From positions 32,011-96,010 of the forward strand of contig CASFTM010000009.1 in assembly GCA_949297775.1 (NCBI GenBank): a stretch of DNA of 64,000 nucleotides, given 5' to 3'. The position numbers and the translations under genes are program-made. Below the pieces are notes generated by a model. It was not told where the DNA came from and did no database searches. It was given only the letters and a program-made list of their open reading frames with translations. Within the stretch, counting starts at the first letter, position 1; each line of letters starts with the position of its first letter. Positions 4,026 through 28,964 of the stretch are shown piece after piece. The stretch comes from an uncultured bacterium (GTDB lineage: Bacteria > Elusimicrobiota > Elusimicrobia > Elusimicrobiales > Elusimicrobiaceae).

Positions 4026-5015
4026 ATGGCAATTATTGCTGACCAGATGTATAACCTCCGCGATGCCGCCGCTCAATTTGCCCCCGATGGGCAAGAGTTA
4101 GCCGTCGCCGAGGTACTGAGCCAAACCAATGACATCATTGGGGATATGCTCATGAAAGAAAGTAACCTAGACAGCGGCCACGAATACGCGGTACGCACTG
4201 GGATTCCCGCCGGAACTTGGCGGCGTGCCTATCAAGGCGTAGATGCGGAAAAAGCCACTCAAAAAGTGGTCTTGGCCCGCCCCGGCACGTTGGGTGCTTA
4301 TTCCGTGGTAGATAAACTCATCGCGGAAAAAGGCGGCCACGTGGATGCGGTACGCGCCGGACAATCCAAAGGCATTATCGCGGGTATGAGCGACACTGTC
4401 GCCTCTGCCTTAATCTACGGCGGTAAAAAGGAATTGGAAAAATGTGTCGGTTTAGCCGAATACTACAATACCACCAAATCGTCCGTAGATACTTCCCGCA
4501 ACGTAGTCAACGCGGGCGGCACTGCCGGAAACGACAAAACCTCCATTTACTTGGTGGTTTGGGATAGCGATAAAGTGTTCGGCTTTTGGCCCAAAGGGTC
4601 TAAGGCGGGTATTTCTCGCGAGGACTTCGGCCTTGTCAACCACTTAGACACCAACACCAACAAAGAATATCCCGCTTACAAGGAATACTTTGAATGGCAA
4701 ATCGGCTTAGCGGTACAGGATTGGCGTTATGCGGCCCGTGTCGCTAACATCAATACGGGCGACTTGGCCAACGTGGACTTGTACGGCCTTATCCAAGACG
4801 CTGAGGAAAGAATCCAAAAAATCGGTGTCGGTAAAGCCGTGCTTTACATGAACAGAACTGTCCGCGCCGCTCTGCGTAAACAGTTAGGTAAAAAAGCCAA
4901 CGTCAACTATGCCCCCGATCAACCGGGCGCAAAGCCGATCTTAACCGTGGACGACATCCCGGTGCATATCTGCGACGCGATTATCAACACGGAATCGCTC
5001 GTTAGCAACAGTTAA
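4026..5015 (+). CDS. Major capsid protein (BPP-1 Bbp17-like)
   Basis: This 329-residue protein follows the scaffold gene by 17 bases with a GAGG ribosome site. It shows the features of the podovirus coat family related to BPP-1 Bbp17. These are an N-terminal LRDAAAQFAPDG helix, an EVLSQTNDIIGDMLMKE block, RTGIPAGTWRRAYQGV, and a late block with YFEWQIGLAVQDWRYAARVANI. The fold is expected to be HK97-like, forming the icosahedral shell. The next gene looks like its cementing partner. Assignment rests on motif recognition and on position after the scaffold. Confidence 0.85.
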   Translation: MAIIADQMYNLRDAAAQFAPDGQELAVAEVLSQTNDIIGDMLMKESNLDSGHEYAVRTGIPAGTWRRAYQGVDAEKATQKVVLARPGTLGAYSVVDKLIAEKGGHVDAVRAGQSKGIIAGMSDTVASALIYGGKKELEKCVGLAEYYNTTKSSVDTSRNVVNAGGTAGNDKTSIYLVVWDSDKVFGFWPKGSKAGISREDFGLVNHLDTNTNKEYPAYKEYFEWQIGLAVQDWRYAARVANINTGDLANVDLYGLIQDAEERIQKIGVGKAVLYMNRTVRAALRKQLGKKANVNYAPDQPGAKPILTVDDIPVHICDAIINTESLVSNS

Positions 5016-10217: not shown

Positions 10218-12181
10218 AAGTACCGCAATTAGAAAACCAAGTAGCCCCCGGACAAATTAGCGTGGCCCGGCCGCAAGTAACCGCTCCTGTGAGCGGTGCG
10301 TTTGGCGAAAAACTGGCGCAAGCCGGGGCTAATATGGCCCACGGGTTAGCCGCCATGGCCAAAGAAAACGAGGCCTCCGCCCGGCGGTTTGAAGTGCGCA
10401 ATCGCAATTTGCGCCTAACGTCAGCCCAGTTAAACTGGCAAAAAGATAATGACGAGATTTTGAACGGCAAAATCAGCCCGGACGGAAAGCGCATTGATGG
10501 CGGACTTTTGGCTAAGCAATACAACGACGCGGAGGGTATAGCAACGGATTATTCCAGCCGCAAAAAAGAACTGATGGATAAACACCTTTCTACGGCCGCC
10601 ACGCCGGAGGAATACGAGGAACTGCGCTTATATTTTGAAAAAGATTTTCAAAACAATTATGACCGCGTCGCCCAACACCAACTTAAAGAGCAACGCGCCA
10701 CGGACGACCTCTTAACAAAAGCATTTACCGAGGACGCTATGCAACGTGTGTCCGCCAACCCGGAAACATTAAACGAGCAACTCGGCCTAATGACCGAAAA
10801 AGCAAAAGCCAACTGGACGCAAAACGGACTACCGCCCGAGGTGCAAGAGGCCAACCAATACGCGCTTAACGGCCAAGCCGTAAGCGTAGCCGTTGGTACA
10901 CTTTTGGAACGAAACCAACCCACACAAGCCGCCGAGGTTTTGAAAGAAAACCGCGACAAAATAGACGTAAAGACAGGCCGTGCACTTGCTAAACAAGTTA
11001 AAACCGCCGTCGTCAACAACCTTAAAACAGAACTGTGGGCCGAGGCGGGTAAGGTACGCACCGCCACGGGCGAGGTAGATTTGAACTACGCTAAGCGCGT
11101 GATCGCCGCCACCGGGTACGAACAGAGTGTACAGGACGATTTACTCAAAGACCTAGAAGCGCGTATGAGCGACGAAAAGCGTTTTAAGGAACAACGCAAC
11201 CGCACGCGCGATGAAAACTTTTACAGCGAGGCCGACAAACTGGTAAATAACGGCGGCTCTTTGGAACAAGGCCTCAAACTGGCCGGGCAATTTGCTAATG
11301 ATAGCAAAGATAAATTTACCAAAGAGAAATTTATTGAATCGCTTTTCAAAGAGTATCAAAACCGCGGGCGCGCTACCCATAGCGACCCGGAGGAATACTT
11401 GCGCTTGTGGAAAGGGATAACCGACGGAACGGTTACGGAGGATGACGTAAAGGCCTCCTTTGAAAATAGCCGCCTTAATGCAAGCGACTACCGCGGCCTT
11501 ATTAAAGAGTGCTACAAAAGCACCGACGAAAAACAGGGTACCTCGTTTGTGCTTAAACAAATTGAGGCCGACGCAAAAAAGAAAATCGCCGACCCGGCCG
11601 ACCGTGCTATGTTTATGCTGGAAGTCAAACGGCAAAGCCAAGGTAAAAAGCCGGAGGAAATGGTAAGCATCGCCAACAGTTTATTACAAAAAACAGGCGG
11701 CTGGTTTAGCAAAGAAAGATACCTTGCCTCCTCCTCTTTGAATATGGAGCAACAGCGCGTAATGGGCGACTATATGCGCGCTTATCCTAATGGCGGAAAC
11801 TATGCAAAACTAATTTCCCAAGCCGTGCGCCAAGAGAAAGCAGACCCTAGTTATGAATGGAGCGAGGCCGACTTAGAGGATTGGACGAAACGCTACGGCG
11901 GGCAAAAACTCTTTACTGAGGGCACGCCGGAAAACGACGCTATTAACTGGATGCTTGAAAATAAAGTAGTACCTACCACGGAGGATATGGACTACGCCGT
12001 AGATTATTTTTATTCCACCCGTGGCGAAAAGAGCCCGCGCACCTTGCGCGAAAGCGTCAAACAACAAAAAGAGGCCCGCGCCGCGGCCGAAAAATTGGCC
12101 GCCCAAAAAATGATAATGCAAGGGGTCAACTTATTTATTAACCCCAGTGAATACGAGGAGAATAATAATGACATTATCTAA
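10214..12181 (+). CDS. Internal virion protein (gp15-like position), coiled-coil rich
   Basis: The start is 10214, since GGGGAGG lies seven bases upstream and the ATGA overlaps the previous stop; the ATG at 10199 lacks this. The 655-residue product is almost wholly helical and charged, with Glu/Lys/Gln-rich heptad-like segments through most of its length (for example residues 60-160 and 290-420). I recognise no domain. Its place between a gp14-like protein and a giant protein in the gp16 position argues that it is a periplasmic ejection protein. The C-terminus overlaps the next start by 14 bases. Confidence 0.65.
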   Translation: MKVPQLENQVAPGQISVARPQVTAPVSGAFGEKLAQAGANMAHGLAAMAKENEASARRFEVRNRNLRLTSAQLNWQKDNDEILNGKISPDGKRIDGGLLAKQYNDAEGIATDYSSRKKELMDKHLSTAATPEEYEELRLYFEKDFQNNYDRVAQHQLKEQRATDDLLTKAFTEDAMQRVSANPETLNEQLGLMTEKAKANWTQNGLPPEVQEANQYALNGQAVSVAVGTLLERNQPTQAAEVLKENRDKIDVKTGRALAKQVKTAVVNNLKTELWAEAGKVRTATGEVDLNYAKRVIAATGYEQSVQDDLLKDLEARMSDEKRFKEQRNRTRDENFYSEADKLVNNGGSLEQGLKLAGQFANDSKDKFTKEKFIESLFKEYQNRGRATHSDPEEYLRLWKGITDGTVTEDDVKASFENSRLNASDYRGLIKECYKSTDEKQGTSFVLKQIEADAKKKIADPADRAMFMLEVKRQSQGKKPEEMVSIANSLLQKTGGWFSKERYLASSSLNMEQQRVMGDYMRAYPNGGNYAKLISQAVRQEKADPSYEWSEADLEDWTKRYGGQKLFTEGTPENDAINWMLENKVVPTTEDMDYAVDYFYSTRGEKSPRTLRESVKQQKEARAAAEKLAAQKMIMQGVNLFINPSEYEENNNDII

Positions 12182-15100
12182 AAATGATTTACCGAGTGCA
12201 CAACAGCCGCAAACCAACTTTGACACGGAGGCAACCGGGGCTCCTACATACGGCCGCCTCTTAGTGGATAATTTGCCCTCGCGCCGCCATGCAAGCGTTA
12301 CGGATAACTTAGAAACCGCAAGCCAAATAAACCCCGACCGGGAGGCCACTGTACAACGCCTTAGCAAACAAACCGGGTACGCGCCGGAGTTTATTAACGC
12401 TAATTTTGAGGACTTCCAAAAACGCCAAGCACTTCCCGGCAATAAAGAACTGGACGAACTGCGCGCTACTGCGCCGGAAACGTACTCGCTCCTTAACAAC
12501 AAAGAAACCGTGCCGCTTATCCAAGATGAATATAAGAAAATGGGATTTTTTGAGCGCAATTTCAAAATGGTACTCAATGCTTTTAAGAAGTCATGGAAAC
12601 AGGACACGCTGGCCGATTTGCGCATTAAACAGCGCGAAAACGATTTGCAAACCAAAACCTACGGCACGGAGTATGACGACGAAATTACCTTATTACAACG
12701 TGAAATAGAGGAACTTGCGGCCCCTACCGGGAGCGTATTTGCACGCGCCCCGTATCACGCGACGGAATTTGCTACGCAAATTTTACTTAGTCAACCCGAT
12801 GCTATTTCCGGCGCGGCCGGAGGCGCGGCGGTAGGTGCCGGGGTGGGAGCCGCGGCCGGAGCGGCCGGATTAGGTGCCGGAGCCGTGCCGGGTGCTATTA
12901 CCGGGGCTACGTGGGGCGCGCGGGGCGGATATATTGCCGGGATGGCCAAGTATGCTAACGACATGGAGGGTGGTCTTGCTTATGGTGATTTGCGCAATTT
13001 GCGCGACGCAAACGGCAACCCGGTACCCGTGGAACTGGCCGACAAAGCAAGCCGTACGGTTGGCTATATTAACGCGGCCTTAGAAACGGCCGGGGATTTA
13101 ATCTTTATTGGAGGCGTATTAAAACCCGCCGGGAAACTGGCCGGGAAAGTAGGAAGTAAATTTGTAGGTAAATCCTTGTCCGGCGCGCTTGGAAAAACGC
13201 TTGCTAAGGTGCCGGGAGCCGAGGGGCTTATTAAAATCATTGAGGGAAACCCCGCCGCCTTTGAGGGGTTGACCTTACGCCAAACTTTTGCCAAAGCCGC
13301 TAAGCAGTGGGCTATTACTACCGCGAGCGAAACCTCTACCGAGTATATGCAAAACGTAGTACAACTTACCGCCGAGGAGGCCGCCAAAGCCGCGAGCGAA
13401 CAACCTTTTGAACGTCGCACGTTTGGTGGTGTAATGGGCGAAAGTTTAGAGGGTATGGATGAGGTAGCCGTCGGCTCCGGCGCGTTGGGGCTTATTGGTT
13501 TTGGGGGCAACTTTCACCAACACATGAGAGCCACACAAGAGGCCGCCCGTGTAGGCCAGTTATACAAACAACTGGGCGAGGGTGTAAAGGAGTTAAAACT
13601 TACTGAACGTGCCCCGGATAAGGCGATCGCTTTTTTAGCGAGCCAAACCAACGGCACACCGATAGAAAACGTATATATTCCTATTACGGCCATTGACCGC
13701 GTAGCCGAGGAAAACAACATAGACCCGCGCGAATTTTTACAGGCCATCGGCCCGGAGGCCGCCGGACAATATGACGAGGCAAAAGCCACGGGCGGCGATA
13801 TTGAAATCAAAACCGCCTCATGGGCCGTACAAAGCCAGTTATATAGCAAACTGACCGGGAAACCTATGTATGAGGCCTTAGAGCGGGATATTAAAATTAG
13901 CCCGGAGGGCCGCACGCAAAACGAACTTGCCGCCGAGGAACAGGAAGTAGCAAAAATCGTCAACGAGCAAGCCGAACAAATGCTCAAAGAGGGGCAGATA
14001 AAACAAGACGAATTAGATACCGCCACGCAAACTTGGACTAATGTTTTGGCCCAGTCCGTTCCCCCGGCCGGAATTGAGGCCGACGAGTGGCAAAAGCAAG
14101 TAGAGGCAAACGCGCAACTGATGGCGCGTATGTCGGTGGTGGAGGCAAAAAAACGCGGCCAAGATTTTGCCGAATTTGCCGAACACTTGAACTTGCCGAC
14201 CGTGCAAACAAAACTTACGCCGGAACAAAAACAGGCCTTTGACCAAGCCAAAGAAGTGTACGCTAAAATCAAAGACGCACTCACTCAAAACGAGGAAACT
14301 TTAACCGCTCAAGAAAAAGGCGGTGCTACGCCGATTATTGACTATTTGCTCAAACGCGGCGGTGTAGCAACGGAAAATACCGATTGGGCCGGGGAAACGG
14401 AAAATTGGCGGCGCAAAGAAAGCAACATTTACGGGCTTGTGAATAACAAAAACGGGATGAAACTTTACGAGGCCGCGCTTGCCGTACAGGAATACTTAGA
14501 GGAAAACGGCTACGGCTCACTTATTGACTTAGGCGACGTAGGGGCCACTACGGCCGACGTGCCGGATTTAATCGCGGCCGTAAATGAGGAAATGGGTAAA
14601 TACATTCCTCTTACTAAACGCGACCGCTACAATAAACGGCTTAATGAAATTTTGAATGTCAACAGCGGACAATTTAAGACACTTTTTGAAAAAGAGTTTG
14701 GCGAAAAACTACCCGACCGCGGTACCCGCGCGCTTAAAAACTTGCATTACTTTTTACTGCGTGAGGCCGTCAAAGACGGTATGATGCCGAGCGAAACCGT
14801 GCTTGCCGAGCATAACATTAACGCCGAGGCACTCTCGGCCGGAAGTTTTGATTTGGCCTCCGCAGATGGAAACGCGCTTTTCCAGCAAGCCCCGGAACGT
14901 GATTTATTCGCCGCGCATAATATGAGTTTGGCCGGAGCGTTGCAAGCCGTTAAAATGGGCGGCCTTGCCATGCCTAGTATGGCCGTGCGGCGCACTTCCA
15001 CTAACGATATAGGCGAATTTGGCGAAGTGTCTTTTGTTGCCGATGAACGTTTGGCCGCGCCATCGCGTAGCACCGAAGTATATGATCGCGACGCGTGGAC

Positions 15101-18100
15101 GCCGTCTATTTACGACAATGTTAAATACAGTTTAAGTACAACCTCTAAAAAGCGTATTGCGCAGATACTTAAAAAAACCGGGGAAGAAAAAAAACTTTCC
15201 ATGTATGTGTATAACATTGAGGAAAGTTTAGCAGACGGAACACGTAACGAACTGGCCCTAGATTTATTTTTGAAAGAAAAAGGTTTGCCGGAAAGTAAGC
15301 GGTACGATTATTACAATAACCCGGAATACCATAATTGGTATAACGAAACTTTTTTTAATGATGCTACCCCCTACTTATTTACCGAAAACGACGACAATAC
15401 GGATATGGTAATGCGTAAATTTACGCTAGGTAACATTATGAAAGTATTGCGCCGCAAAGAACGCAACGCCGGAGGGTATATCGGCGAGCATATTTTTAGC
15501 GTGCAAGAGTTAGTTAAATTTTTCCCGCAAAAATTTAGAAACTTAAAACATTTGCGCGGTAAAAAAGAAAACCTAACCGACCGAGATAAAATTTACAAAA
15601 AAATAGAAAAACTGGATAAAGATTTTAACAACTTGGCCGCCTCTTTGCGTACCGAGGGAAAAGAAAAAGAATATGGCAAAGATCGTTATGCGTTAGGGGT
15701 TGCCATTGTAAATAGCGGTAAGCGCGAAAACCAACTGCACTTTTTGCAAAGTGCTGGCTTGCGCACGGATGATAAAGCAATAGCCGCTATTGATAAGTTT
15801 GCCGAACGGCTGAAAAACGAAATACCTACCGACTACTTTGAGGCCAAGCCCCGCCGGGTGGTAAAGTTTAACGAGTTTTCCGGCGTGATTATGCCAAACA
15901 CACAAGAGTATGACACGCTGGCCAACATATTAGAAAGCCAGTACAATTTGCCCGTTTTCCGTATTGAAAAAAGAAATGCGGAACAGTATAAAGCGGCTCT
16001 AAATAAATTACAAGAAATGCGCCCTACGACGTTTTTTCAAGCCGCGTATCATGGCTCGCCGCACCTATTTGACGAATTTGTATTGTCTGCTATTGGCACA
16101 GGTGAGGGCGCGCAGGCTCATGGCTGGGGGTTGTATTTTGCCGGAAACAGACAAACCGCTGAAAAATACCGTGAGAAACTTTCCCGCGGTATTCCCCGGC
16201 CGGATGATGTTTTAATTTATGATGGAAAAGAATACTTGCCCGGTGATAAAAGCGTTATGCGCGAGGCGTTGGATTATATCCATGACCGCGGTAGCAAAGA
16301 TAAGGCTGTCCGGGTGTTAAAAACACTGAAAGACGATAGCGAATTTTACGCTAAGTTTTGGAAAGATAGTAAAGAATACGAAGCAGAAAATAGGAAATCT
16401 GCTGAGCATTATGCGGAACTCTTACGCATAGTAGAAGGACTAGACCCCCAAAAATTTACTTTCAAAAAAGGCAAACTTTACAAGGTGGAAATCCCAGAGA
16501 GCGATGTGCTTTTGGATGAACAAAAATCGTTTGATAAACAGCCGCAAAAGGTACAAACCGCGCTTAAACGGTTAGCCAAAGACCGTGCCGAACTTTTACG
16601 CGACTATTCCTTACAGGAGGCCATAGATGAAAATAACACGGGCGGCAGTATGTATGATTTGCTGGTTTTACGCCTAAAAGACCAGTGGCAACAACTGGGC
16701 GATAAAAGCGGAGCCAACCCGCAAGAATTTATTTCAAAAGAATTAAACCAATACGGCATTAAAGGTATTACCTATAACGGTCAACAAGACGGGCGGTGTT
16801 TTGTTATCTTTGACGACAAGGCCATAGATATATTGGATAAATACTACCAACGTGCCGCCGGACGTGCACGTGGTATGTTTAACAAAACCACAAACACAAT
16901 TACCATTATGCCGGATGCTAATGCCTCCACGCTTACGCACGAACTGGCGCACTATTGGCTTAATGAACGGTGGCAATTTCTAAACAGCGGGCTTGCGAGT
17001 GATGAGTATAAAAAGGACTTCGCGCCGCTTGCTAAGTACCTTGAAATTGCGGACGACCAAAAAGAACTTACCCGCGCGCAACATGAGAAATTTGCGAAAA
17101 GTTTTGAGGCCTATTTGCGTGAGGGCAAGTCGCCTAGTTTGGAAATGGAGCGGCTTTTTGGCCGCTTGCGCCGCTGGATGCTCCGTGTGTATAAGGACGT
17201 TAAAAAGCAACTTGGCGTAGAACTTAACGACGACATCCGCCGCGTATTTGACCGCATGCTGGCAACCGAGGAGGAAATTGTCGCCGCGGAGCGCGAACGC
17301 ACCTACGAGCCATTTACCAAAACACCCGGACTTTCTGCCGAGGACGTAGCCCGTTTGGAACGTCTGCGCGAGGACGCGCACAATAAGGCCGTTATGCAAA
17401 TTATGAAAGAGGAGGCCGACGAGTGGGAATATACGAATAAACAAAAGGAACTTTACGCTTATGAGCGGGAATATGAAACCGTAGAAAAAGAACTCGCCGC
17501 CCGGAGCGATTACCAACTGGCCAACATAGTAGAGTCGCACTTTATAGATAGCCAATACGCCAAAGACCACAACAAAACGGACGCTAACAATTTGACCTCC
17601 GCTAAGGAATTGGCGCACGCTTTTCACGCTAACTTACTGAGCGAGGCGGATCGCACTTTATGGACGGTGCTTGCCGAAAGCAACGGAAAAACGGCCGCGC
17701 AAATGGCCGAGGAACTGGTAACCTTAAAACCGTTTAGAGAGGCCGTAGATGATGAAACCGACCGCCGGATGGAAAAATACAAACTCAATAAGGATATGCG
17801 CGATTTGCGCCGTGCGCAAGCCGAGGCCTTATCAAACGACCGCGCGCTTGATGTGCTGGCCTTAGAGCGTGATTTGTTCTTAAATTTCAAACGCACGGCC
17901 AGCGTCCAACGCGCACAGGAAACTAAGGCCTTGGCCAAAAAGGCCGCCCGTGAGTGGTTGCACTCTAAACCCGCCCGGATAGCCGCCCGTTTCTCGCCTT
18001 ATTACACGGCACAAAAACGCGCCGCCACACGCGCCGCGCGTGCCTTAGCGCGACAGGATTACGAGGCCGCCGCACAAGCAAAAATGGAGGAACTTTTTAA

Positions 18101-20672
18101 CGCCGCCGCGGCCGCCGAAAGCGTGCGTATTAGTAAGCGACTGCGCCGCTTGCAAGAAAGTATGAAATACTTTCAACGCAAAAAAATACAACTGCTTAAA
18201 AAACAGGAGCATTACTTGCAAATGGCCGACTTGCTTTTTCGCCTCGGCTACGCCCGCAACGATTATGAGCCGTCTATGAAAATGGAAAGTTTGGCCGAGT
18301 GGTCTAAACGCTACAAAGAATTGGGTTATGACGGTGTAATGATACCCGATTGGATTACAAACGAGAGCCGTAATTTAGATTGGCGGCGGTTGCCTATTGA
18401 CAGTTTGCAACAAGTGGTAGATGCAATTAAAAACATTAACCACACGGCCAACTTTGAAAACCGCTTATTTAGTATGCACCGCCGTAAAACGATTAGCGAT
18501 TTGGCTTTTATGGTGGCGCAACATCTCAGCAAAACCGTTTCGCAAAAAACACGCGAAAAATTCAAAGACCAAGTGGAGCCGGAAAAAGACAATTTTGGTA
18601 GCGGCGTGGCAAAATACTTTTACTCCATGACCAAGTTAGACACGCTTCTACATAAAGCCGACGGATTTCACGATTTCGGTTTTATGTGGGATTTATTCGG
18701 CCAACCGACAAAAGACGCGGCCGATAAAGAAAGCGTGCATATCCGTACGTTTAAGGACGCTTATAAAAAACTCATTAACGAGCATTATACGCAAGACGAG
18801 TTACAGGAAATTTTTAACACAAAAAAATATCACCCGGAACTTGGCGATGAGTGTACCAAGGAACGCTTACTTGCTATGGCCCTAAACATGGGAAACGAAC
18901 AAAACCGCAAACGCTTATTTGATAATCCACCCGTCGGCCATAGATACATTAAAAACCCGGACGGCACCACAAACGAGTGGACGCAAGAAAGCGTAGAGCG
19001 TTTATTGCGTAACAATCTCACCGTAAAGGATTGGGATTTTGTGCAAGGCGTGTGGGATTTAATCAATGAGCCATGGGGAGCCGTGAGCGAAATGCACCAA
19101 CGCTTAACGGGTTTTACGCCCGGAAAAGTGGAGGCCTTATCGTTTGCTATTGCAACCGCCGACGGCAAAACGGCGCAACTGCGCGGCGGGTATTACCCGA
19201 TTAAATACGATTGGCGCGGTAGCCGCTGGGCCGAGCGTGAGGAGTATTTAGCCCAACCGCTCTATACGGAAAGCAACCAAGCATGGGCGGCCACTACTAA
19301 GCAAGGACACACAAAGGCCCGCGCTAAGGAAGTGCGCCAACCCTTAGCCCTTAACCTCAACCTAGTAGAGCGGCACATGACCGAAGTTATACACGACTTG
19401 TATTTCCGCCCGGTAGTGGTGGATTTGCGCCGCTTGTTAGATAACGATTATATGCGCGAAACGCTTATTAAAAACCTCGGCCGCAACAGGTACGGCTTAC
19501 TCAAAGCGCACCTTAACATGATAGCAACGGGCGGCCAAGAAACAAGCGGTATCGGCGTGATTAACAAAACAGTAGAGTGGTTACGCAAACATACCACTAT
19601 TGCCGTGCTGGCCGGGAAGTCAAGCGTAATTATTGAAAACTTGGCCAACCCATGGCTATTTACTAATGCCGTGGAGGGATTTACGGGTAAAGACGTGCTT
19701 AAAGGCGTAGCCCTTGCGCTAAGCGAATACGGCCCGCAAAGTTTATTAGGGATGGAAAAGGCCAAACAACTGCAAGAATACGTGTTTAGTAAATCCTCCT
19801 TAATGAAAGACAAAAGTGAAAACTACGATGTTACTATGCGCCAACTGCGCAAGGCAAACATTTTCGGCGAGGATAGTATGCTTTTGGAATTTACCAACGC
19901 CGCCATGGTGGCAACGGATGATTTCTTTGCTATTCCTATGTGGGTAACGGCCTATAATAAATGGTTTGACCTTGCTATTAAAGAGGGCAAAAAAGATAAA
20001 GAGGCCGACCGTATCGCCATTGACCGCGCGGATATGCTGATTAACCGCGTGCTTGGCTCCGGCCGCCGCTACGATGCGGCCGAGATTATGCGCAACCGTA
20101 ACGCTATTGTGCGTTGTCTTACGATGTTCGCTACGTTTATGAACAACGAATTTAACCGTTGGAGCCGCGAAACGGGCCTACTGTTGGAGGAACACGACGC
20201 TATCCGCTACGCCGGATTTGTGGGCGGTCGCTTGTTAGTGTGGTACACCATGAGCCAACTGCTTGCCGGAAAATGGCCGGACGATTTAAGCCCGGATGAA
20301 CTCCTCAAATGGTGGTTTAGCGGCCTTGTGGATAACGTGAGCGGTATGTTTGTTGGTGTGCGTGATATTTTGCCCGTACTACTAGCCAAAGTAATGGGAT
20401 GGCAAACTTTCGGCTATCGGCCGACACCGATTTCCGGCACGTTAGAGGAAATGATTTTGCGCCCGGCCGAGGCCGTGAGCGGCTACGTGCGCGGTAAGAA
20501 GTCCGGCCAAGACACAAGCGAAACGTTGGCCAAGGCGGCCAGTTATTTGGCACCTTACCCCAACCAATTAAATACGTGGTTTTTCAATGCGTATGACTAC
20601 GTTTTCAATGGGAGCACGCCGCGCCCGCGTGATTTGTATAGACGGCGGCCTAAGAAAGAGAGAGGTAATTAA
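12168..20672 (+). CDS. Giant polyvalent ejection protein with ART-like and HExxH domains
   Basis: The ATG at 12168 is preceded by GAGGAG; an upstream in-frame ATG at 12147 is less likely. The 2834-residue product is the largest of the phage. Visible parts, in order, are an N-terminal charged region, Gly/Ala-rich membrane-like stretches near residues 210-265 and 310-345, and an SLAGALQAVKMGGLAMPS block near residue 920 as seen in polyvalent proteins. An ADP-ribosyltransferase-like domain starts near 1293 (YHGSP, HGWGLYFA, then YGIKGITY and CFVIFDD). A metallopeptidase-like HELAHYW lies near 1590. A very long helical C-terminal half follows. It occupies the gp16 position, so it is probably ejected with the DNA and may modify host targets. 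The activities are inferred. Confidence 0.8.
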   Translation: MTLSKNDLPSAQQPQTNFDTEATGAPTYGRLLVDNLPSRRHASVTDNLETASQINPDREATVQRLSKQTGYAPEFINANFEDFQKRQALPGNKELDELRATAPETYSLLNNKETVPLIQDEYKKMGFFERNFKMVLNAFKKSWKQDTLADLRIKQRENDLQTKTYGTEYDDEITLLQREIEELAAPTGSVFARAPYHATEFATQILLSQPDAISGAAGGAAVGAGVGAAAGAAGLGAGAVPGAITGATWGARGGYIAGMAKYANDMEGGLAYGDLRNLRDANGNPVPVELADKASRTVGYINAALETAGDLIFIGGVLKPAGKLAGKVGSKFVGKSLSGALGKTLAKVPGAEGLIKIIEGNPAAFEGLTLRQTFAKAAKQWAITTASETSTEYMQNVVQLTAEEAAKAASEQPFERRTFGGVMGESLEGMDEVAVGSGALGLIGFGGNFHQHMRATQEAARVGQLYKQLGEGVKELKLTERAPDKAIAFLASQTNGTPIENVYIPITAIDRVAEENNIDPREFLQAIGPEAAGQYDEAKATGGDIEIKTASWAVQSQLYSKLTGKPMYEALERDIKISPEGRTQNELAAEEQEVAKIVNEQAEQMLKEGQIKQDELDTATQTWTNVLAQSVPPAGIEADEWQKQVEANAQLMARMSVVEAKKRGQDFAEFAEHLNLPTVQTKLTPEQKQAFDQAKEVYAKIKDALTQNEETLTAQEKGGATPIIDYLLKRGGVATENTDWAGETENWRRKESNIYGLVNNKNGMKLYEAALAVQEYLEENGYGSLIDLGDVGATTADVPDLIAAVNEEMGKYIPLTKRDRYNKRLNEILNVNSGQFKTLFEKEFGEKLPDRGTRALKNLHYFLLREAVKDGMMPSETVLAEHNINAEALSAGSFDLASADGNALFQQAPERDLFAAHNMSLAGALQAVKMGGLAMPSMAVRRTSTNDIGEFGEVSFVADERLAAPSRSTEVYDRDAWTPSIYDNVKYSLSTTSKKRIAQILKKTGEEKKLSMYVYNIEESLADGTRNELALDLFLKEKGLPESKRYDYYNNPEYHNWYNETFFNDATPYLFTENDDNTDMVMRKFTLGNIMKVLRRKERNAGGYIGEHIFSVQELVKFFPQKFRNLKHLRGKKENLTDRDKIYKKIEKLDKDFNNLAASLRTEGKEKEYGKDRYALGVAIVNSGKRENQLHFLQSAGLRTDDKAIAAIDKFAERLKNEIPTDYFEAKPRRVVKFNEFSGVIMPNTQEYDTLANILESQYNLPVFRIEKRNAEQYKAALNKLQEMRPTTFFQAAYHGSPHLFDEFVLSAIGTGEGAQAHGWGLYFAGNRQTAEKYREKLSRGIPRPDDVLIYDGKEYLPGDKSVMREALDYIHDRGSKDKAVRVLKTLKDDSEFYAKFWKDSKEYEAENRKSAEHYAELLRIVEGLDPQKFTFKKGKLYKVEIPESDVLLDEQKSFDKQPQKVQTALKRLAKDRAELLRDYSLQEAIDENNTGGSMYDLLVLRLKDQWQQLGDKSGANPQEFISKELNQYGIKGITYNGQQDGRCFVIFDDKAIDILDKYYQRAAGRARGMFNKTTNTITIMPDANASTLTHELAHYWLNERWQFLNSGLASDEYKKDFAPLAKYLEIADDQKELTRAQHEKFAKSFEAYLREGKSPSLEMERLFGRLRRWMLRVYKDVKKQLGVELNDDIRRVFDRMLATEEEIVAAERERTYEPFTKTPGLSAEDVARLERLREDAHNKAVMQIMKEEADEWEYTNKQKELYAYEREYETVEKELAARSDYQLANIVESHFIDSQYAKDHNKTDANNLTSAKELAHAFHANLLSEADRTLWTVLAESNGKTAAQMAEELVTLKPFREAVDDETDRRMEKYKLNKDMRDLRRAQAEALSNDRALDVLALERDLFLNFKRTASVQRAQETKALAKKAAREWLHSKPARIAARFSPYYTAQKRAATRAARALARQDYEAAAQAKMEELFNAAAAAESVRISKRLRRLQESMKYFQRKKIQLLKKQEHYLQMADLLFRLGYARNDYEPSMKMESLAEWSKRYKELGYDGVMIPDWITNESRNLDWRRLPIDSLQQVVDAIKNINHTANFENRLFSMHRRKTISDLAFMVAQHLSKTVSQKTREKFKDQVEPEKDNFGSGVAKYFYSMTKLDTLLHKADGFHDFGFMWDLFGQPTKDAADKESVHIRTFKDAYKKLINEHYTQDELQEIFNTKKYHPELGDECTKERLLAMALNMGNEQNRKRLFDNPPVGHRYIKNPDGTTNEWTQESVERLLRNNLTVKDWDFVQGVWDLINEPWGAVSEMHQRLTGFTPGKVEALSFAIATADGKTAQLRGGYYPIKYDWRGSRWAEREEYLAQPLYTESNQAWAATTKQGHTKARAKEVRQPLALNLNLVERHMTEVIHDLYFRPVVVDLRRLLDNDYMRETLIKNLGRNRYGLLKAHLNMIATGGQETSGIGVINKTVEWLRKHTTIAVLAGKSSVIIENLANPWLFTNAVEGFTGKDVLKGVALALSEYGPQSLLGMEKAKQLQEYVFSKSSLMKDKSENYDVTMRQLRKANIFGEDSMLLEFTNAAMVATDDFFAIPMWVTAYNKWFDLAIKEGKKDKEADRIAIDRADMLINRVLGSGRRYDAAEIMRNRNAIVRCLTMFATFMNNEFNRWSRETGLLLEEHDAIRYAGFVGGRLLVWYTMSQLLAGKWPDDLSPDELLKWWFSGLVDNVSGMFVGVRDILPVLLAKVMGWQTFGYRPTPISGTLEEMILRPAEAVSGYVRGKKSGQDTSETLAKAASYLAPYPNQLNTWFFNAYDYVFNGSTPRPRDLYRRRPKKERGN

Positions 20673-22209: not shown

Positions 22210-22965
22210 ATGGCAAACGAACTTTTATATGTACCCGGCGTAGGCACGCGCTATTATTATAATCCTACCACGGCCGGAACGGTAACCATGACCGAAATAG
22301 GATCTGGCACGCTGACTAGCGCGCTTGAAAACGGCCGCCCGGTTATGACTTTTGGCGGCAAGGCGTTAAAGTTTTCTATTGGTAACGGTATGCAAAATAG
22401 CCGCACAATAGAGTATTGGATGACGTTAAGCGGGTGGAACAACGCGGGTACGTCGCACCAGTGGGGCTATTTGGGGAGCCGTTCGGTTGGATTTGTGAAA
22501 TGGTTACCTAAACCCGTAACAGGCACAAACAATGTAAATTTTCAACTTGATTTTGGCGACGGCGACCCCGAGGACACAGTAGTAACATTACCCGACCAAT
22601 CCTCACCCGTGCACGTGGCCCAAGTGTTTGATACGAGCGATAGCAACTACCAATTAAAACTTTATGTCAACGGAACAAAAGTCAAAGAGCATTATTATCA
22701 CAACCCGTGGACGAATGTAATACTTATTGGCGGCTCTATTGCCGAAACAAACGACACCACGCTGACGGACGCCTTTACCGGGAAAATTAGCGATTTCTTA
22801 GTAACCGACAGCGCGAAATACACGGCCAACTTTACGCCCGCCCGGCCAAACGTAAATTTGAAAAGTTTATCAAAGGGCGGAAACCCTATACAAGGTTTTA
22901 CCGCCCCGGAAATGAACTATTTGGAAATTGATGGCATACCGTACAAAATTGCGGTGGCACAATAA
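22210..22965 (+). CDS. LamG/concanavalin-like distal tail protein
   Basis: This 251-residue protein has an AAGGAG site. The pattern GKALKFSIGNGMQNSRTIEYWM, shortened here to residues 50-71, then HVAQVFDTSDSNYQLKLYVNG and FTGKISDFLVTDSAKYT, is that of a LamG-like jelly-roll lectin. Such domains bind sugars or proteins, and in phage they sit at fibre tips. The gene lies between the fibre shaft and the DGR target in one tight run, so it probably belongs to the same adsorption apparatus. Confidence 0.7.
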   Translation: MANELLYVPGVGTRYYYNPTTAGTVTMTEIGSGTLTSALENGRPVMTFGGKALKFSIGNGMQNSRTIEYWMTLSGWNNAGTSHQWGYLGSRSVGFVKWLPKPVTGTNNVNFQLDFGDGDPEDTVVTLPDQSSPVHVAQVFDTSDSNYQLKLYVNGTKVKEHYYHNPWTNVILIGGSIAETNDTTLTDAFTGKISDFLVTDSAKYTANFTPARPNVNLKSLSKGGNPIQGFTAPEMNYLEIDGIPYKIAVAQ

Positions 22966-23281: not shown

Positions 23282-24874
23282 ATGTTAGAACAGCAAGCAG
23301 GTAGCATTGTATATTGTGGAACGGCCGCCCCGGCAAGCGGTACGGCCTCCGGCGGCGGGCTTGCCCCGCAAGCCATCTCTAACCGCAAAATCGTAAAAAG
23401 CGGCACTGCGTACTCTTTGACGTGGACGGATCCGGCCGACACGACCGTGAACGGGCAAGTGTTATGTGCATGGGGCGGTACGAAAATTGTACGTAAAGAG
23501 GGTTCTTTCCCGCAAAGCCCTACCGACGGCGTGGTAGTGTTAGACAACAAAGTACGCAACCAATACGCCTTAGAGCCATTTGTAGATACGGTGGACGATG
23601 CGGATAAGGTTTATAAATACCGCGCGTTTCCGTATTCCGTCAACGGCGTGTATGGTATGCAAACGCAAAATATGTTTGACAGATGGGTTTTTACGTTTAA
23701 GGAACTCATTACCGAAAGCGCGCCGGATTATCGTATTACTTACGACGACGACAACGCCAACTATACACCCGGCCACATGGATTTTACCACCGGGAAATTT
23801 GACTTTGGCGATTGGGCCAACTGTCCGCTTATTGCGTGGGAAAACCTCCGGCCGTGTATGGTTTATAATACTGACGCCGGAAACGACAAAAACGGAACTG
23901 TTGCCTATTATTTAGACCCGAACGACCACTCTAAAAAATACGGTAGCGATGAGGCCAGTGATGTAAGCAACCCGGATTTCCCCGGTAACGCTATGGTAGA
24001 AGTGCGCCGCGTTTTCAAAAAAGTAGTCGTGGACGGAAACTATATTATTAAGTCCTTTTCCAATGAGAAATTGGATGACGGCTACGAATGCTACCCGTGT
24101 AAAAAAGCCGATGGTACGTATGCCGATTTCTTCTACGCGCCTATGTTTATGGCCTCTTTGATTGACGGGAAATTCCGCTCTCTTGCCGGGCAAACGCTCA
24201 ATAAGAGCAAAACGGCCGCGCAAGAAAGAACATACGCACAAGCAAACGGCGACGGTTGGGATGTAGAAACGTGGGCCGACGACCAGTATTTTGAGGATTT
24301 AACAAAACTCATTATTGGTAGCACAAACGCGCAAGCCAAAATCGGCGAGGGCGTTACGTCCGGCGGTGAATCGGCTTTACTTTCCACGGGTACCACGTTG
24401 GATAAAGGTATGATGTACGGCTCTAATACCACCACCGTGGCCGTAAAAGCGTTTTACCGCGAAAACCCATGGGGTAGCCAATGGCGGCGTATGGTAGGTA
24501 TGTTGCTTGTCAACGGCGTGTGGAAAGTGAAAATGACCAAGTCCACCGTGGACGGCTCTACTGCGTCGGATTACAACCATACCGGGGAGGGTTACATTAC
24601 GTTGGAAGTGGCCACTCCGTCCGGCACTTCCGGCGGTTATATTTCCACTATTGAACAAGCCGGACAGTATGGTTGTTTCCCTACTGTAATGAGTGGCACG
24701 GAAAGCACGTACGAATGTGATGGCTGTTGGTTTAACAACAGCATTACGGCAGTCCCGCAGCGCGGCGGGGCCGCGTACTCTGGCCGTGTCTGCGGCCCGT
24801 CGTGCTTGTCTGTGGCCTCCACGGCGACGTATGCGCTCTGGTACGTCTCGGCGGCTCTTTCTTATCACCAATAA
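23282..24874 (+). CDS. DGR target: receptor-binding protein with C-type-lectin-like variable C-terminus
   Basis: This 530-residue protein starts five bases after the previous stop with GGGGAG upstream. The N-terminal ~350 residues are of unknown fold. From about residue 385, ENPWGSQWRRMVGMLLV and later GGYISTIEQAGQYGCFPTVM match the layout of formylglycine-enzyme/C-type-lectin folds used as DGR targets. The last ~39 codons are the variable repeat, coding GGAAYSGRVCGPSCLSVAS. The equivalent template codes GGNANNGRKCGPSYLNVNN, so surface Asn codons have been converted to Ala, Tyr, Ser and Leu. It is the presumed tip adhesin, diversified to bind changing receptors. It ends two codons after the VR region in a TAA, just before a GC hairpin. 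Confidence 0.88.
   Translation: MLEQQAGSIVYCGTAAPASGTASGGGLAPQAISNRKIVKSGTAYSLTWTDPADTTVNGQVLCAWGGTKIVRKEGSFPQSPTDGVVVLDNKVRNQYALEPFVDTVDDADKVYKYRAFPYSVNGVYGMQTQNMFDRWVFTFKELITESAPDYRITYDDDNANYTPGHMDFTTGKFDFGDWANCPLIAWENLRPCMVYNTDAGNDKNGTVAYYLDPNDHSKKYGSDEASDVSNPDFPGNAMVEVRRVFKKVVVDGNYIIKSFSNEKLDDGYECYPCKKADGTYADFFYAPMFMASLIDGKFRSLAGQTLNKSKTAAQERTYAQANGDGWDVETWADDQYFEDLTKLIIGSTNAQAKIGEGVTSGGESALLSTGTTLDKGMMYGSNTTTVAVKAFYRENPWGSQWRRMVGMLLVNGVWKVKMTKSTVDGSTASDYNHTGEGYITLEVATPSGTSGGYISTIEQAGQYGCFPTVMSGTESTYECDGCWFNNSITAVPQRGGAAYSGRVCGPSCLSVASTATYALWYVSAALSYHQ
24751..24863 (+). repeat. DGR variable repeat (VR)
   Basis: These 113 bases align without gaps to the template at 24964-25076 (offset 213). 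I count 23 mismatches, all at positions where the template has A (6 to G, 8 to C, 9 to T). All 83 non-A template bases are identical, and 7 of 30 template adenines are unchanged. The effect is 13 amino-acid changes and one silent change. Identity ends abruptly after CTT at 24863. Such adenine-only divergence is diagnostic of DGR mutagenic retrohoming. Confidence 0.97.
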
Positions 24875-24886
24875 GGGAGGGGGTAA

Positions 24887-24907
24887 AGGGGGGATAACCT
24901 CCCCCCT
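24887..24907 (+). promoter_or_regulatory. GC hairpin downstream of VR (putative homing structure)
   Basis: AGGGGGG at 24887-24893 pairs perfectly with CCCCCCT at 24901-24907 around a seven-base loop. It lies 23 bases after the VR and 12 after the target's stop codon. In BPP-1 and other DGRs a GC-rich hairpin or cruciform just downstream of VR marks the recipient site for homing, and TR lacks it. The same arrangement is seen here: no such hairpin follows TR. It could also serve as a terminator, but no T-run follows. Confidence 0.7.
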
Positions 24908-24963
24908 ACCGCCCATAGTTTTAAGGAGCAAATAACTGGATACGGGGATAAAAGTATAAGCCG

Positions 24964-25076
24964 AGTCCCGCAACGCGGCGGGAACGCGAACAATGGCCGT
25001 AAATGCGGCCCGTCGTACTTGAATGTGAACAACACGGCGACGAATGCGAACTGGAACATCTCGGCGGCTAATTCTT
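24964..25076 (+). repeat. DGR template repeat (TR)
   Basis: Non-coding copy of the VR located between the target gene and the reverse transcriptase. Read in the VR frame it has ten AAC/AAT asparagine codons plus one AAA, the typical template design in which adenine mutagenesis of AAY codons gives many residues but no stop codons. Similarity to VR starts at AGTCCCG and ends at CTT. Upstream of 24964 the two regions are not convincingly alike. The RNA copied from here is the template of the mutagenic cDNA. Confidence 0.96.
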
Positions 25077-25191
25077 GTGAAAAAGAGGTTTTATCAATGT
25101 ATTTTTATTTCCGCGCCCCTAGGCGAAAATTACCGCTAAGGAACGGGTTAGTAAGAAGTTTTGAAAGCCCGTTAGGGAAACAAGAAAGATT
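25077..25191 (+). ncRNA. DGR spacer RNA region between TR and RT
   Basis: 115 bases separate TR from the RT start codon. No frame of note is present. AACGGG at 25142-25147 can pair with CCCGTT at 25168-25173, enclosing a 20-base loop. In BPP-1 the corresponding spacer RNA folds and is bound by the RT-Avd complex to prime cDNA synthesis in TR. The same job is inferred here from position and size. Confidence 0.55.
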
Positions 25192-26331
25192 ATGAAAACA
25201 TATAAGCATTTGTTTGAACAACTTGTTTCAACCGAAAATATATCACGCGCGATATGGCGCGCCTCACACGGCAAACAAAAGCGGCGTGATGTGCGCTACG
25301 TGTTAGAAAACAGAATCTATTACGTGCGTGCTATTCAGTATTTACTCCGTAAGCAACTATGGCACCCGCGCGTCCATGGCGCGGTAGAAATAAATGACGG
25401 CGTGCTACTTAAAAAAAGGATTATTGTAAAGCCGGATTTTATCTATGAGCAGATAATCCATCACGCCCTTGTGCAAGTATTAAAGCCGTTGTTTATGAAC
25501 TCTATGTATGCGCTCTCGTGCGGGAGCGTACCTAAACGCGGCGGCGTGTACGGAAAGAAACATTTAAGTAAATGGATAAAGCGGCACCCCGCCTATGCTA
25601 AATACGCCGCTAAGGGTGATATACGGCATTTCTTTCAAAGCATCCCTATGGAGCGCGTGAAAGAAAAACTAGCGGCCAAGATAAAAGATAAACGCTTTTT
25701 GTGGGTATTATTTGCGGCCATAGGTAACTGTTACGCCTACTATAACGGCGAACTTATCTATATGGGGTTGTGTATCGGTTATTATACGAGCCAATGGATC
25801 GCCAACTGGTACTTGCAAGAAATGGATTATTTTGTCAAACAAACTTTACATATACGTTGCTATTTGCGCTATGTGGATGACTTTGTGCTGGTAGATAACA
25901 ATAAGCGTAAGTTACACCGGGCCGTACGTGCCATAAAAGCATGGCTTATCAAACGCGGGCTCACTCTAAAAGCAAATTGGCAAGTGTTTAAGTTAGCCGT
26001 ATTGCGCGAAAAAGAAAACGGTAAAAATTTACCGCGTATCGGCCGCGCTATTGATTTTATGGGATTTGTATTTTTTAGAAACAAAACGATTTTACGGCGC
26101 AATATCTTTTACCGTGCGTGTAATAAAGCCCGGCGTATTACCCGTAACTTGCCTAACTGGTACACGGCTCAACAGTTACTTTGTTATATGGGCTGGTTTA
26201 AGCATAGCGATACGTTTAATGCATTTAAGCGTTTTGTTACGGATTTGGTGGATGTGGCCGGACTCAAAAAGATGGTATCGGCCCACCAATTAAAACTCAA
26301 TAGGAGGCAAAAGCAGTATGTTAAAAATTGA
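25192..26331 (+). CDS. DGR reverse transcriptase
   Basis: This 379-residue RT has the motifs in order: a basic N-terminal region, RIIVKPDFIYEQIIHHAL (about 76-93), KGDIRHFFQSI with the first catalytic Asp at 143, IGYYTSQ at 195-201, RYVDDFVLVDN with YVDD at 227-230, and GRAIDFMGFVFF near 284-295. IGxxxSQ in motif 4 is the hallmark of DGR RTs, where group II intron and retron enzymes have QGxxxSP-like sequence. No maturase, endonuclease or protease domain is attached. With TR and VR immediately upstream, it makes adenine-mutagenised cDNA for homing into VR. The ribosome site is weak (AAGAAAG), which may keep expression low. Confidence 0.95.
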   Translation: MKTYKHLFEQLVSTENISRAIWRASHGKQKRRDVRYVLENRIYYVRAIQYLLRKQLWHPRVHGAVEINDGVLLKKRIIVKPDFIYEQIIHHALVQVLKPLFMNSMYALSCGSVPKRGGVYGKKHLSKWIKRHPAYAKYAAKGDIRHFFQSIPMERVKEKLAAKIKDKRFLWVLFAAIGNCYAYYNGELIYMGLCIGYYTSQWIANWYLQEMDYFVKQTLHIRCYLRYVDDFVLVDNNKRKLHRAVRAIKAWLIKRGLTLKANWQVFKLAVLREKENGKNLPRIGRAIDFMGFVFFRNKTILRRNIFYRACNKARRITRNLPNWYTAQQLLCYMGWFKHSDTFNAFKRFVTDLVDVAGLKKMVSAHQLKLNRRQKQYVKN

Positions 26332-26566
26332 ATGGAAAGAAAGCGAAAGTATGGAACGCCCGGCCGAAGTGGACGAAACCTCGTCGGCTCACGTGGCATA
26401 TCTACGTAAAGAAATTACCGAGGTGGAAACCCCGGCCACGGATAACCAACCCGCCAGCACGAAGTACGTTTATAAAGAGGCCGTACTCACCAAGGCTGAT
26501 TATGAATTGTACGTCATGGCCAAACAAGTAGCGGCCGAGGTACTGGCGCAAGCGCAAGGAGCGTAG
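26318..26566 (+). CDS. Small acidic phage protein after the RT
   Basis: This 82-residue frame overlaps the RT end by 14 bases and has AGGAGG 11 bases before its ATG, so it is probably translated. It is acidic, with SAHVAYLRKEITEVETPA in the middle and a C-terminal helix YELYVMAKQVAAEVLAQAQ. It is too short and too acidic to be the basic four-helix Avd accessory protein of DGRs. The function is unknown. It could belong to the tail module or open the lysis module that follows. Confidence 0.6.
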   Translation: MLKIEWKESESMERPAEVDETSSAHVAYLRKEITEVETPATDNQPASTKYVYKEAVLTKADYELYVMAKQVAAEVLAQAQGA

Positions 26567-26567
26567 T

Positions 26568-26828
26568 ATGAGCGCATCTGTAATTATTGCGCTTGTTGGG
26601 CTCGTGCTTACTGTTGGTACAACCGTGTTTGCCATCGGTAAAATCATCGGCGCATTTACGGCCAAAATTGCCGCCGAACTGGAAGCGTTAAAGCAGATAG
26701 TAGTTTTTCGTCTTGAAAACTTGGAAAAAAAGCAAGACAAATATAACCATCTGCAAGAGCGCGTAATCGGGTTAGAACGGGATAATAAAACCCTATTCAA
26801 CCTAATCAAAGGGGCTAACAATGGATGA
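26568..26828 (+). CDS. Small membrane protein with coiled coil (lysis module)
   Basis: This 86-residue protein has one N-terminal transmembrane segment (about residues 4-27, SVIIALVGLVLTVGTTVFAI) followed by a charged coiled coil to the end. The topology is that of XhlA-type or holin-accessory proteins, or of an inner-membrane spanin. It starts one base after the previous stop with AAGGAG and overlaps the endolysin gene by eight bases, placing it in the lysis cassette. Confidence 0.6.
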   Translation: MSASVIIALVGLVLTVGTTVFAIGKIIGAFTAKIAAELEALKQIVVFRLENLEKKQDKYNHLQERVIGLERDNKTLFNLIKGANNG

Positions 26829-27252
26829 GGAATTAAAGCAAAAAATCCGGGAGCGTACAAAACGCTTTGAGGGTTTGTCGCTTGTGCCTTATAAGTGCCC
26901 GGTAGGTGAGGACACTATTGGCTACGGGCATCTTATTAAAAACGGTATTACGCAAGCCGGAGCCGAGGTACTATTAGAGGAGGATTTGAAAGCCGCATAT
27001 CGTGCCGCCCGTGGTAATTTTGCGTGGTTTTCAAAACTCAACGGCCCGCGCCAAGCGGTGATTATAGATATGATTTTTAACATCGGTCTAACACGCTTGT
27101 ACGGGTTTAAGAAAATGCGCGCCGCTATTGAGGCGGGCGACTTTGAAACGGCCGCTAAGGAAATGCTGGATAGTAAATACGCCCGGCAAGTAGCATACCG
27201 CGCCCGGCTTAACGCCGAGATACTTAAAACAGGAGAGTGGAACAATGCCTAA
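26821..27252 (+). CDS. Endolysin, GH24 lysozyme (T4-type)
   Basis: This 143-residue phage lysozyme cleaves the glycan strands of peptidoglycan. The active-site region is clear: FEG with the catalytic Glu at 17, Cys at 26 and Thr at 32 in GEDTIGYGHL. The spacing (9 and 15 residues) equals that of the T4 lysozyme triad Glu11-Asp20-Thr26, so the usual Asp is replaced by Cys, a known tolerated variant. A later RQAVIIDMIFNIG block is also typical of the family. There is no N-terminal signal or anchor, so export depends on a holin, for which the gene at 27425 is the candidate. Confidence 0.9.
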   Translation: MDEELKQKIRERTKRFEGLSLVPYKCPVGEDTIGYGHLIKNGITQAGAEVLLEEDLKAAYRAARGNFAWFSKLNGPRQAVIIDMIFNIGLTRLYGFKKMRAAIEAGDFETAAKEMLDSKYARQVAYRARLNAEILKTGEWNNA

Positions 27253-28797: not shown

Positions 28798-28944
28798 ATG
28801 GGCGGCTGGAGCGGCATAAACTGCTTTATGCCGCGTAGGGATTTGAAAGGCGCAGCGATGTTTTGGTTTGCGCCTGCCAGGCGCAAGGCCAAAACCGCGA
28901 GCCCGGCCTGCAGGAAAATTCCGTCAGGAATTTTACCGGAAGGC

Positions 28945-28964
28945 AAATCCCTCCCTCTCCGCCA
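28945..28964 (+). other. tRNA-Ser 3'-end-like segment, copy 2
   Basis: AAATCCCTCCCTCTCCGCCA fits exactly the last 20 bases of a tRNA: T-loop end AAAT, T-stem CCCTC, acceptor CCTCTCC, G, CCA. It is 197 bases after copy 1 and lacks the 5' half of the T-arm, so it is a fragment. It marks the junction of the two repeat units. Confidence 0.55.

Follow-up and report, generated by a model that had tools for sequence, protein, structure and literature searches.

A predicted Avd-less diversity-generating retroelement with a putative RT-18/template repeat priming helix in a BPP-1-like prophage of an Elusimicrobiaceae genome

The window, that is, the whole 64,000-nt stretch of DNA analyzed here (C9:32011-96010 of a 1.69-Mb Elusimicrobiaceae draft genome, reaching the end of contig C9), contains at positions 23282-26331 a predicted diversity-generating retroelement (DGR) within a prophage related to the Bordetella phage BPP-1. 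The element is composed of a predicted tail protein gene ending in a variable repeat (VR), a hairpin, a template repeat (TR), a spacer with an RNA of the Rfam RT-18 family, and a reverse transcriptase (RT) gene (Table 1). From its sequence and that of its relatives, we consider it very likely that this is a complete DGR without a recognizable Avd gene, belonging to a BPP-1-like Elusimicrobiaceae prophage, which diversifies the tail gene and is primed with the help of a helix between the TR end and the RT-18 tail.

Table 1. Features of the DGR and of the surrounding prophage (positions in the window unless marked C9)
Feature	Coordinates	Strand	Basis or remarks
DGR target gene, 530-aa predicted tail protein, VR at C end	23282-24874	+	phrog_5302 tail protein, E 2.3e-82
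Variable repeat (VR)	24751-24863	+	repeat comparison
Apparently fixed IMH letters CT	24857-24858	+	TR counterpart AA at 25070-25071
Hairpin 3' of VR	24887-24907	+	8-bp stem AGGGGGGA/TCCCCCCT, loop TAACC
Template repeat (TR)	24964-25076	+	no gene assigned; repeat comparison
5' strand TTCTTGT of predicted closing helix (TR end, IMH*)	25072-25078	+	complementarity, covariation, fold
RT-18 RNA (RF03021) in TR-RT spacer	25114-25187	+	60.2 bits, E 3.9e-8, gathering 41.3, full length
3' strand ACAAGAA of predicted closing helix	25180-25186	+	tail unpaired in Rfam model
DGR reverse transcriptase, 379 aa	25192-26331	+	RVT_1; phrog_1423; 8ub7; tree
82-aa acidic protein	26318-26566	+	phrog_20201; overlaps RT by 14 nt
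Right part of 40-kb BPP-1-like prophage	1-28964	+	gene order, integrase, att repeats, tRNA-Ser; left part upstream from C9:20520
Right attachment repeat, 21 bp	28944-28964 (C9:60954-60974)		identical to tRNA-Ser(CGA) 3' end, C9:20520-20540
Head-to-tail connector, bbp21 homologue	1244-2911	+	PF12236 E 1e-160; 41% to bbp21
Major capsid protein, bbp17 homologue	4026-5015	+	PF20911 E 1.5e-97; 35% to bbp17
2841-aa polyvalent protein, bbp10 homologue	12147-20672	+	bbp10 match E 2e-78
Phage lysozyme (endolysin)	26821-27252	+	PF00959 E 4e-16

The VR lies at the 3' end of the target gene, 8 nt from the stop codon at 24872. Both repeats are 113 nt long and align without gaps at an offset of 213, with 90 identical positions and 23 mismatches. 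Every mismatch faces a TR adenine (23/23), adenine being the letter at 30 of the 113 TR positions (hypergeometric p = 3.5e-18); from TR to VR there are nine A>T, eight A>C and six A>G changes. According to the available text of Roux et al. (PMC8144416), adenines as a rule account for 75% or more of TR/VR mismatches in DGRs. Two of the 23 mismatches (AA in TR, CT in VR) look like a fixed difference between the initiation of mutagenic homing sequence (IMH) and its TR counterpart (IMH*), because residue 526, at which the TR reads AAT, is leucine in 31 of the 32 rows of the target alignment; the other 21 are therefore attributable to mutagenesis. No third copy of the repeat was found on either strand of the window. 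In the 1.69-Mb genome the sole extra match, 28 bp in an unrelated open frame of contig C4, was taken as chance.

A stem follows the VR, as in BPP-1, for which the available text of PMC12875486 describes a stem-loop at this place. Folded as single-stranded DNA, the hairpin had a z score of -1.81, and 11 of 200 shuffles were equally good; strong stems were found 3' of the VR in 67 of 79 loci, versus a mean of 2.9 for letter-shuffled segments.

The closest solved structure to the RT by single sequence was 8ub7, the RT of a DGR ribonucleoprotein (E 1e-11), which was also first in the profile search (1.8e-32, versus 4e-22 for the runner-up structure) and in the fold search (RT model pLDDT 87.7). 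We take 8ub7 to be the BPP-1 RT; its length of 328 is that of brt. A tree was built by a quick method from the 91 rows left after removal of 15 near-duplicates from a collection of 106. The window RT is placed among 88 DGR-type rows, from which three group II-type outgroups split off at 100, and five Avd-bearing rows branch outside a set of 82 Avd-less rows (support 89). Eight of 90 Elusimicrobiaceae genomes had a match to the RT, five of them at E <1e-19 including the genome of the window, and five further RT loci at this level, in four genomes (L018, L019, L020, L021 and L025), have their own adenine-biased TR/VR pairs.

Natural variation in the VR agrees with the adenine pattern. A total of 636 target homologues were found, of which 120 were listed and 31 (P0121-P0151) aligned. 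P0121, from a separate ENA record, is 95% identical to the target across all 530 residues; 11 of its 28 differences are inside the 37-residue VR, all 11 at codons with a TR adenine and none at codons lacking one, and the other 17 are elsewhere in the protein. At the nine AAY (AAC/AAT) TR codons, all 279 residues of the 31 homologues are NNY-encodable; as a background, columns 400-489 of the same homologues contain 381 K, Q, E, M or W among 2776 residues. Alignment columns at AAC/AAT codons hold 7-11 different residues versus 1-4 at codons without A. No target homologue was matched in the other 89 of the 90 Elusimicrobiaceae genomes.

The first-pass annotation had proposed a complete phage-borne DGR with a VR-ending target gene, hairpin, TR and RT in series, and had made this depend on the RT lying within the DGR clade. 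The four parts were located in that order, the RT motifs it had named (IGxxxSQ and YVDD) are present as IGYYTSQ and YVDD, and the adenine-only TR/VR difference, the place of the RT among DGR rows and the prophage setting bear the proposal out. Its description of the set as that of BPP-1 holds for VR, hairpin, TR and RT and fails for Avd, which was not found. An avd gene cannot sit at its BPP-1 position, since only 89 nt separate the target stop codon from the TR. Profiles PF22296 and PF05635 gave no match over the 1.69-Mb genome, nor in 14 control genomes, and PF22296 gave none in Butyrivibrio phage Arawn; PF22296 detects the Avd of BPP-1, a positive control that PF05635 did not have. An iterated Avd profile, run over 103 sources, found Avd only in BPP-1 (L029), ACA1 (L117), L014 and L016, with nothing in C9:1-62500 or in 80 viral relatives, many of which are cut loci where a distant Avd could escape. 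Avd-less DGRs are a known kind, to which the window element adds another member: the available text of PMC7290462 puts DGRs without an accessory homologue at about a quarter, and already includes Avd-less ones with the target-TR-RT layout.

The 80 viral relatives were taken from a scan that yielded 415 related stretches. RT-18 reached the gathering score in 50 of these 80 (L004, and L034-L112 as 20/20, 8/20, 12/20 and 9/19), and additionally in L005, L006, L007, L018, L113 and L115. A TR/VR candidate was found in 46 of 57 RT-18 sources; adenines account for 676 of the 734 mismatches, and the median distance from TR end to RT-18 start is 40 nt (46 loci). Of the 11 sources without a candidate, six had less than 450 nt before the RT and two lacked a called RT frame; the search found none in L041, L056 and L113. 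The TR/VR script mis-called L014, L029 and L117, with few mismatches at A, and these were excluded from all counts. It also mis-called L012, L015, L037, L045, L065 and L107, where a lower proportion of the mismatches falls at A; L037, L045 and L065 contribute to the totals of 46 loci and of 734 mismatches, and under a later 75% filter L045 passed (in another register) and L037 and L065 failed.

An RNA model of our own, built from 35 RT-18 sequences, matched directly 5' of the RT in all 64 viral loci it was given, 34 of them outside the model; these loci were drawn from the 80 viral relatives, leaving out near-duplicates and L004. It gave no match in BPP-1, ACA1, two group II records and an Acaryochloris DGR with Avd, and none in L014-L016, L025, L114, L116 or L119. 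L118 had a weak partial match, and L020 and L021 had weak matches on the other strand only. Other Rfam RT-n RNAs were observed beside DGR-type RTs: FP_Epona (L114 3358-3474) carries RT-4 instead of RT-18, L019 (1385-1489) carries RT-17 and L015 (761-919) carries RT-16, which suggests that several Rfam RT-n families act as the spacer domain of a DGR template RNA. The RT-n names were not mentioned in the literature searched, a search that did not cover their presumed source paper; a search for DGRs with Elusimicrobi gave only an unrelated mention.

The 3' tail of RT-18, unpaired in the Rfam model, covaries with the 3' end of the TR across loci, and we propose the TR end as its partner. Complementary TR end/RT-18 tail pairs in other loci include TTACTAAAA/TTTTAGTAA, ACTAAGTT/AACTTAGT and TTCTTTAAT/ATTAAAGAA. 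In 37 non-redundant loci, out of 44 having a TR, RT-18 and 75% adenine mismatches, a helix of 6-12 bp was found in 36. The mean helix score was 18.2 versus 12.9 (standard deviation, sd, 0.40) for permuted partners, with none of 1000 permutations as high. A further 29 loci without an Rfam RT-18 call scored 15.5 versus 13.4 (sd 0.45; 0/500), and one of these loci, crAssphage LMMB, had a helix of 11 bp. When the two strands were aligned separately, 0.70 of cells were paired in the register chosen as best, versus 0.60 (sd 0.02) for permuted partners and 0.42-0.58 for slid strands. On the tree, only two class-level changes of the helix were counted, too few for a test of co-change. Among the 36 loci whose helix is at least 6 bp long, 31 carry an AATG motif in the linker between TR and RT-18 (25077-25113 in the window); no pairing partner or role was found for it.

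The distribution of TR/VR differences around the helix points to where copying would start. In 36 loci, between positions -28 and -13 from the helix start, 132 of 209 A cells differ versus 4 of 367 others; between -12 and -4, a single cell out of 324 differs. The VR never retains a TR adenine at -2 (18/18) or -1 (28/28), and at -1 it has only T (21) or C (7). An adenine occurs at +1 or +2 on the 3' side of the helix in 35 of the 36 loci. The order is the same in BPP-1, where adenine changes extend to position 98, none is seen at 99-119, differences reappear at 120, 124 and 126-128, and TR 123-129 pairs with spacer 48-54. The BPP-1 priming adenine, presumably A56, is 2 nt past that helix, and the copying start, which we take to be G117, is six before it. 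The available text of PMC12875486 identifies the BPP-1 cDNA primer as an internal adenine of the spacer. From the BPP-1 order, the TR/VR map and the adenine after the helix, we infer priming near 25187 and a copying start in or near 25063-25069.

In the mechanism that we favour, the transcript of TR and spacer would fold so that 25072-25078 pairs with 25180-25186, and the helix would place an adenine just 3' of it, at or near 25187, in the priming position, so that the cDNA would start at the site given above, as in BPP-1. The RT would misread template adenines while copying the TR, and the cDNA would replace the VR upstream of the fixed IMH letters, the hairpin helping. The new tail variants may change the cell surfaces bound by the phage, an effect on receptor binding that is inferred. 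As a generalization, we lean towards regarding the Rfam RT-n RNAs beside DGR RTs as 3' priming domains, with RT-18, in the Avd-less lineage, closing on the TR end by the covarying helix that sets priming adenine and cDNA start, so that RNA plus RT alone would fill the role of Avd in BPP-1.

Several observations weigh against this account. The helix permutation tests ignore kinship, and a kinship-aware test was modest: in 16 phylogenetically disjoint pairs, the own partner was better in 7, worse in 1 and tied in 8 (one-sided p = 0.035). One of the 37 loci, L091, lacks a 6-bp helix in the stretch searched, and the window sequence folded alone yields the helix and not the first RT-18 hairpin of Rfam inside it. 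L079 shows an adenine change at -9, therefore the copying start cannot be much upstream of -9. Rich in purines, the RT-18 tail stops 4 nt short of the RT start, therefore its conservation may partly reflect ribosome binding. In the RT tree, L015, which is Avd-less, lies outside the Avd-less set, together with L014, and the quick method gave long branches, so that the exact branching order is unsure. Avd was sought with known Avd profiles only, which would miss an unrelated helper. Finally, a C-type lectin fold was not recovered for the VR domain of the target: the VR part was modelled at pLDDT <50, and the fold search returned nothing at E ≤0.001.

The purine-rich tail directly 5' of the RT start codon is what would be expected if RT-18 were mainly a leader controlling RT translation, its tail being a ribosome-binding site hidden by pairing with the TR end, and templating needing no helix. 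We find this unlikely: the partner strand is in the TR end, the counterpart of the BPP-1 region where the cDNA starts, the fixed TR/VR letters directly adjoin the helix, and in FP_Epona the best pairing strand is about 26 nt before the RT start. The leader and priming roles are compatible and can coexist.

The gene downstream of the RT could be a different substitute for Avd. Of 83 loci, 81 have an open reading frame (ORF) whose start is close to the RT end; it overlaps the RT in 65 of these, and a single profile made from 10 of the ORFs matches 60 of the 81. A motif scan independent of the RT found 26 viral loci, each judged on visual inspection to belong to the family, and in 24 of them the gene sits just downstream of a DGR RT; 12 of the 26 contigs were already in the set, and 12 of the 14 new ones carry the RT. 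This association would suit an Avd substitute of the DGR lineage, an idea that we nevertheless hold to be quite improbable. In the two members without RT, L144 and L146, the gene comes immediately after one for a target tail protein homologue, too close for a TR or RT to fit between, so that it appears tied to the tail gene; in addition, the downstream ORFs encode acidic products, with a median of -0.09 charges per residue, which is unexpected for an RNA-binding helper. L144 and L146 resemble the same site lacking the DGR cassette. Because these RT-less copies directly follow the target homologue, the 82-aa protein probably partners the tail target and is not an RT factor, and TR, spacer and RT are read as a cassette between the tail gene and the 82-aa gene. 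The phrog_20201 profile gave no match over 340 genomes, the genome of the window included, and is hence uninformative.

A decayed remnant, in which the VR differences would be old, is very unlikely. The prophage may be defective, which would fit such a remnant; against it, the RT and target gene are both open and the TR is in place, P0121 differs at 11 VR residues versus 17 elsewhere, and the integrase, repressor-like and structural genes are open. We read the element as a genuine phage DGR whose genes are open and which is probably active. An RT of another class (group II intron, retron or defence RT) beside an unrelated repeat would be favoured by the NCBIfam listing of group II, Drt3a and retron models, all of them far below their cut-offs; it can be practically discarded, since the adenine-only mismatches, the DGR tree placement and 8ub7 as nearest structure contradict it.

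Comparison with BPP-1 (NC_005357) showed the same arrangement of a VR ending a tail gene, a TR, a structured spacer and an RT, with the TR end pairing with the spacer in BPP-1 and, by prediction, here. As in a BPP-1-like podovirus, the head and tail genes are homologous and colinear: bbp21, 18, 17, 16, 14, 13, 10 and brt were matched in the same order, and bbp12 and bbp11 weakly. Five Bordetella records were found among 91 capsid matches. The differences are the avd gene, present in BPP-1 and not found here; the spacer RNA, RF03022 (Phage_DGR) there and RF03021 here; the pairing strand, mid-spacer there and at the spacer 3' end here; the RT, 23% identical; and the target, not matched to Mtd. 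Sixteen further BPP-1 proteins, including both terminase subunits, replication proteins, integrase and Avd, had no match; two blastp matches among them (E 0.08-0.1 over 15-18 residues) were taken as chance. BPP-1 also has an adenine methylase, which did not match the MT-A70 adenine methyltransferase observed in the early region of the prophage (C9:25953-26573; L030:13943-14563).

Phage Arawn (NC_048848) shares target, TR, spacer and RT without avd, its RT and target being 40% and 32% identical, and our RNA model matches its spacer (31 bits). It differs in a spacer below the Rfam gathering score and in belonging to another phage genus with another host. The Avd-less 'lineage 3' DGRs, such as that of crAssphage LMMB, have the target-TR-RT layout without avd in the available text of PMC7290462; the LMMB RT is 29% identical to that of the window.

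The prophage of ~40.4 kb lies in a tRNA-Ser gene, tRNA-Ser(CGA), at C9:20453-20540, with its integrase at C9:20726-21901 on the minus strand. The 2841-aa polyvalent protein has a PBECR5 nuclease-like domain and a weak, sub-cut-off ADP-ribosyltransferase-like match, with the bbp10 likeness in its later part. A Concanavalin A-like (Laminin_G_3) protein, just below the Pfam cut-off, is encoded at 22210-22965, 5' of the target and between the tail fibre and the DGR. Host genes follow the prophage in the window, namely fmt, ribulose-phosphate epimerase, trmD-like and rplS. The organism-named fmt homologues, 6 of the 120 listed, all come from Elusimicrobia or Elusimicrobiaceae bacteria at 76-78% identity, consistent with the Elusimicrobiota host suggested in the first-pass annotation, whose gut setting for this host and adhesin role for the target are putative.

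The papers on the DGR mechanism that were consulted rest on BPP-1, where Avd is required (PMC12875486). The window adds an Elusimicrobiota prophage with the BPP-1 structural gene order and a testable priming model for Avd-less DGRs, of which the RT-18/TR helix is the part useful to the specialist. If RT-18 is the priming domain of such DGRs, a function would be assigned to an RNA family for which none is stated, the cDNA start would become readable from sequence for several hundred viral DGRs (the 415 related stretches), and a system of just two parts, RNA and RT, would become testable in a laboratory strain.

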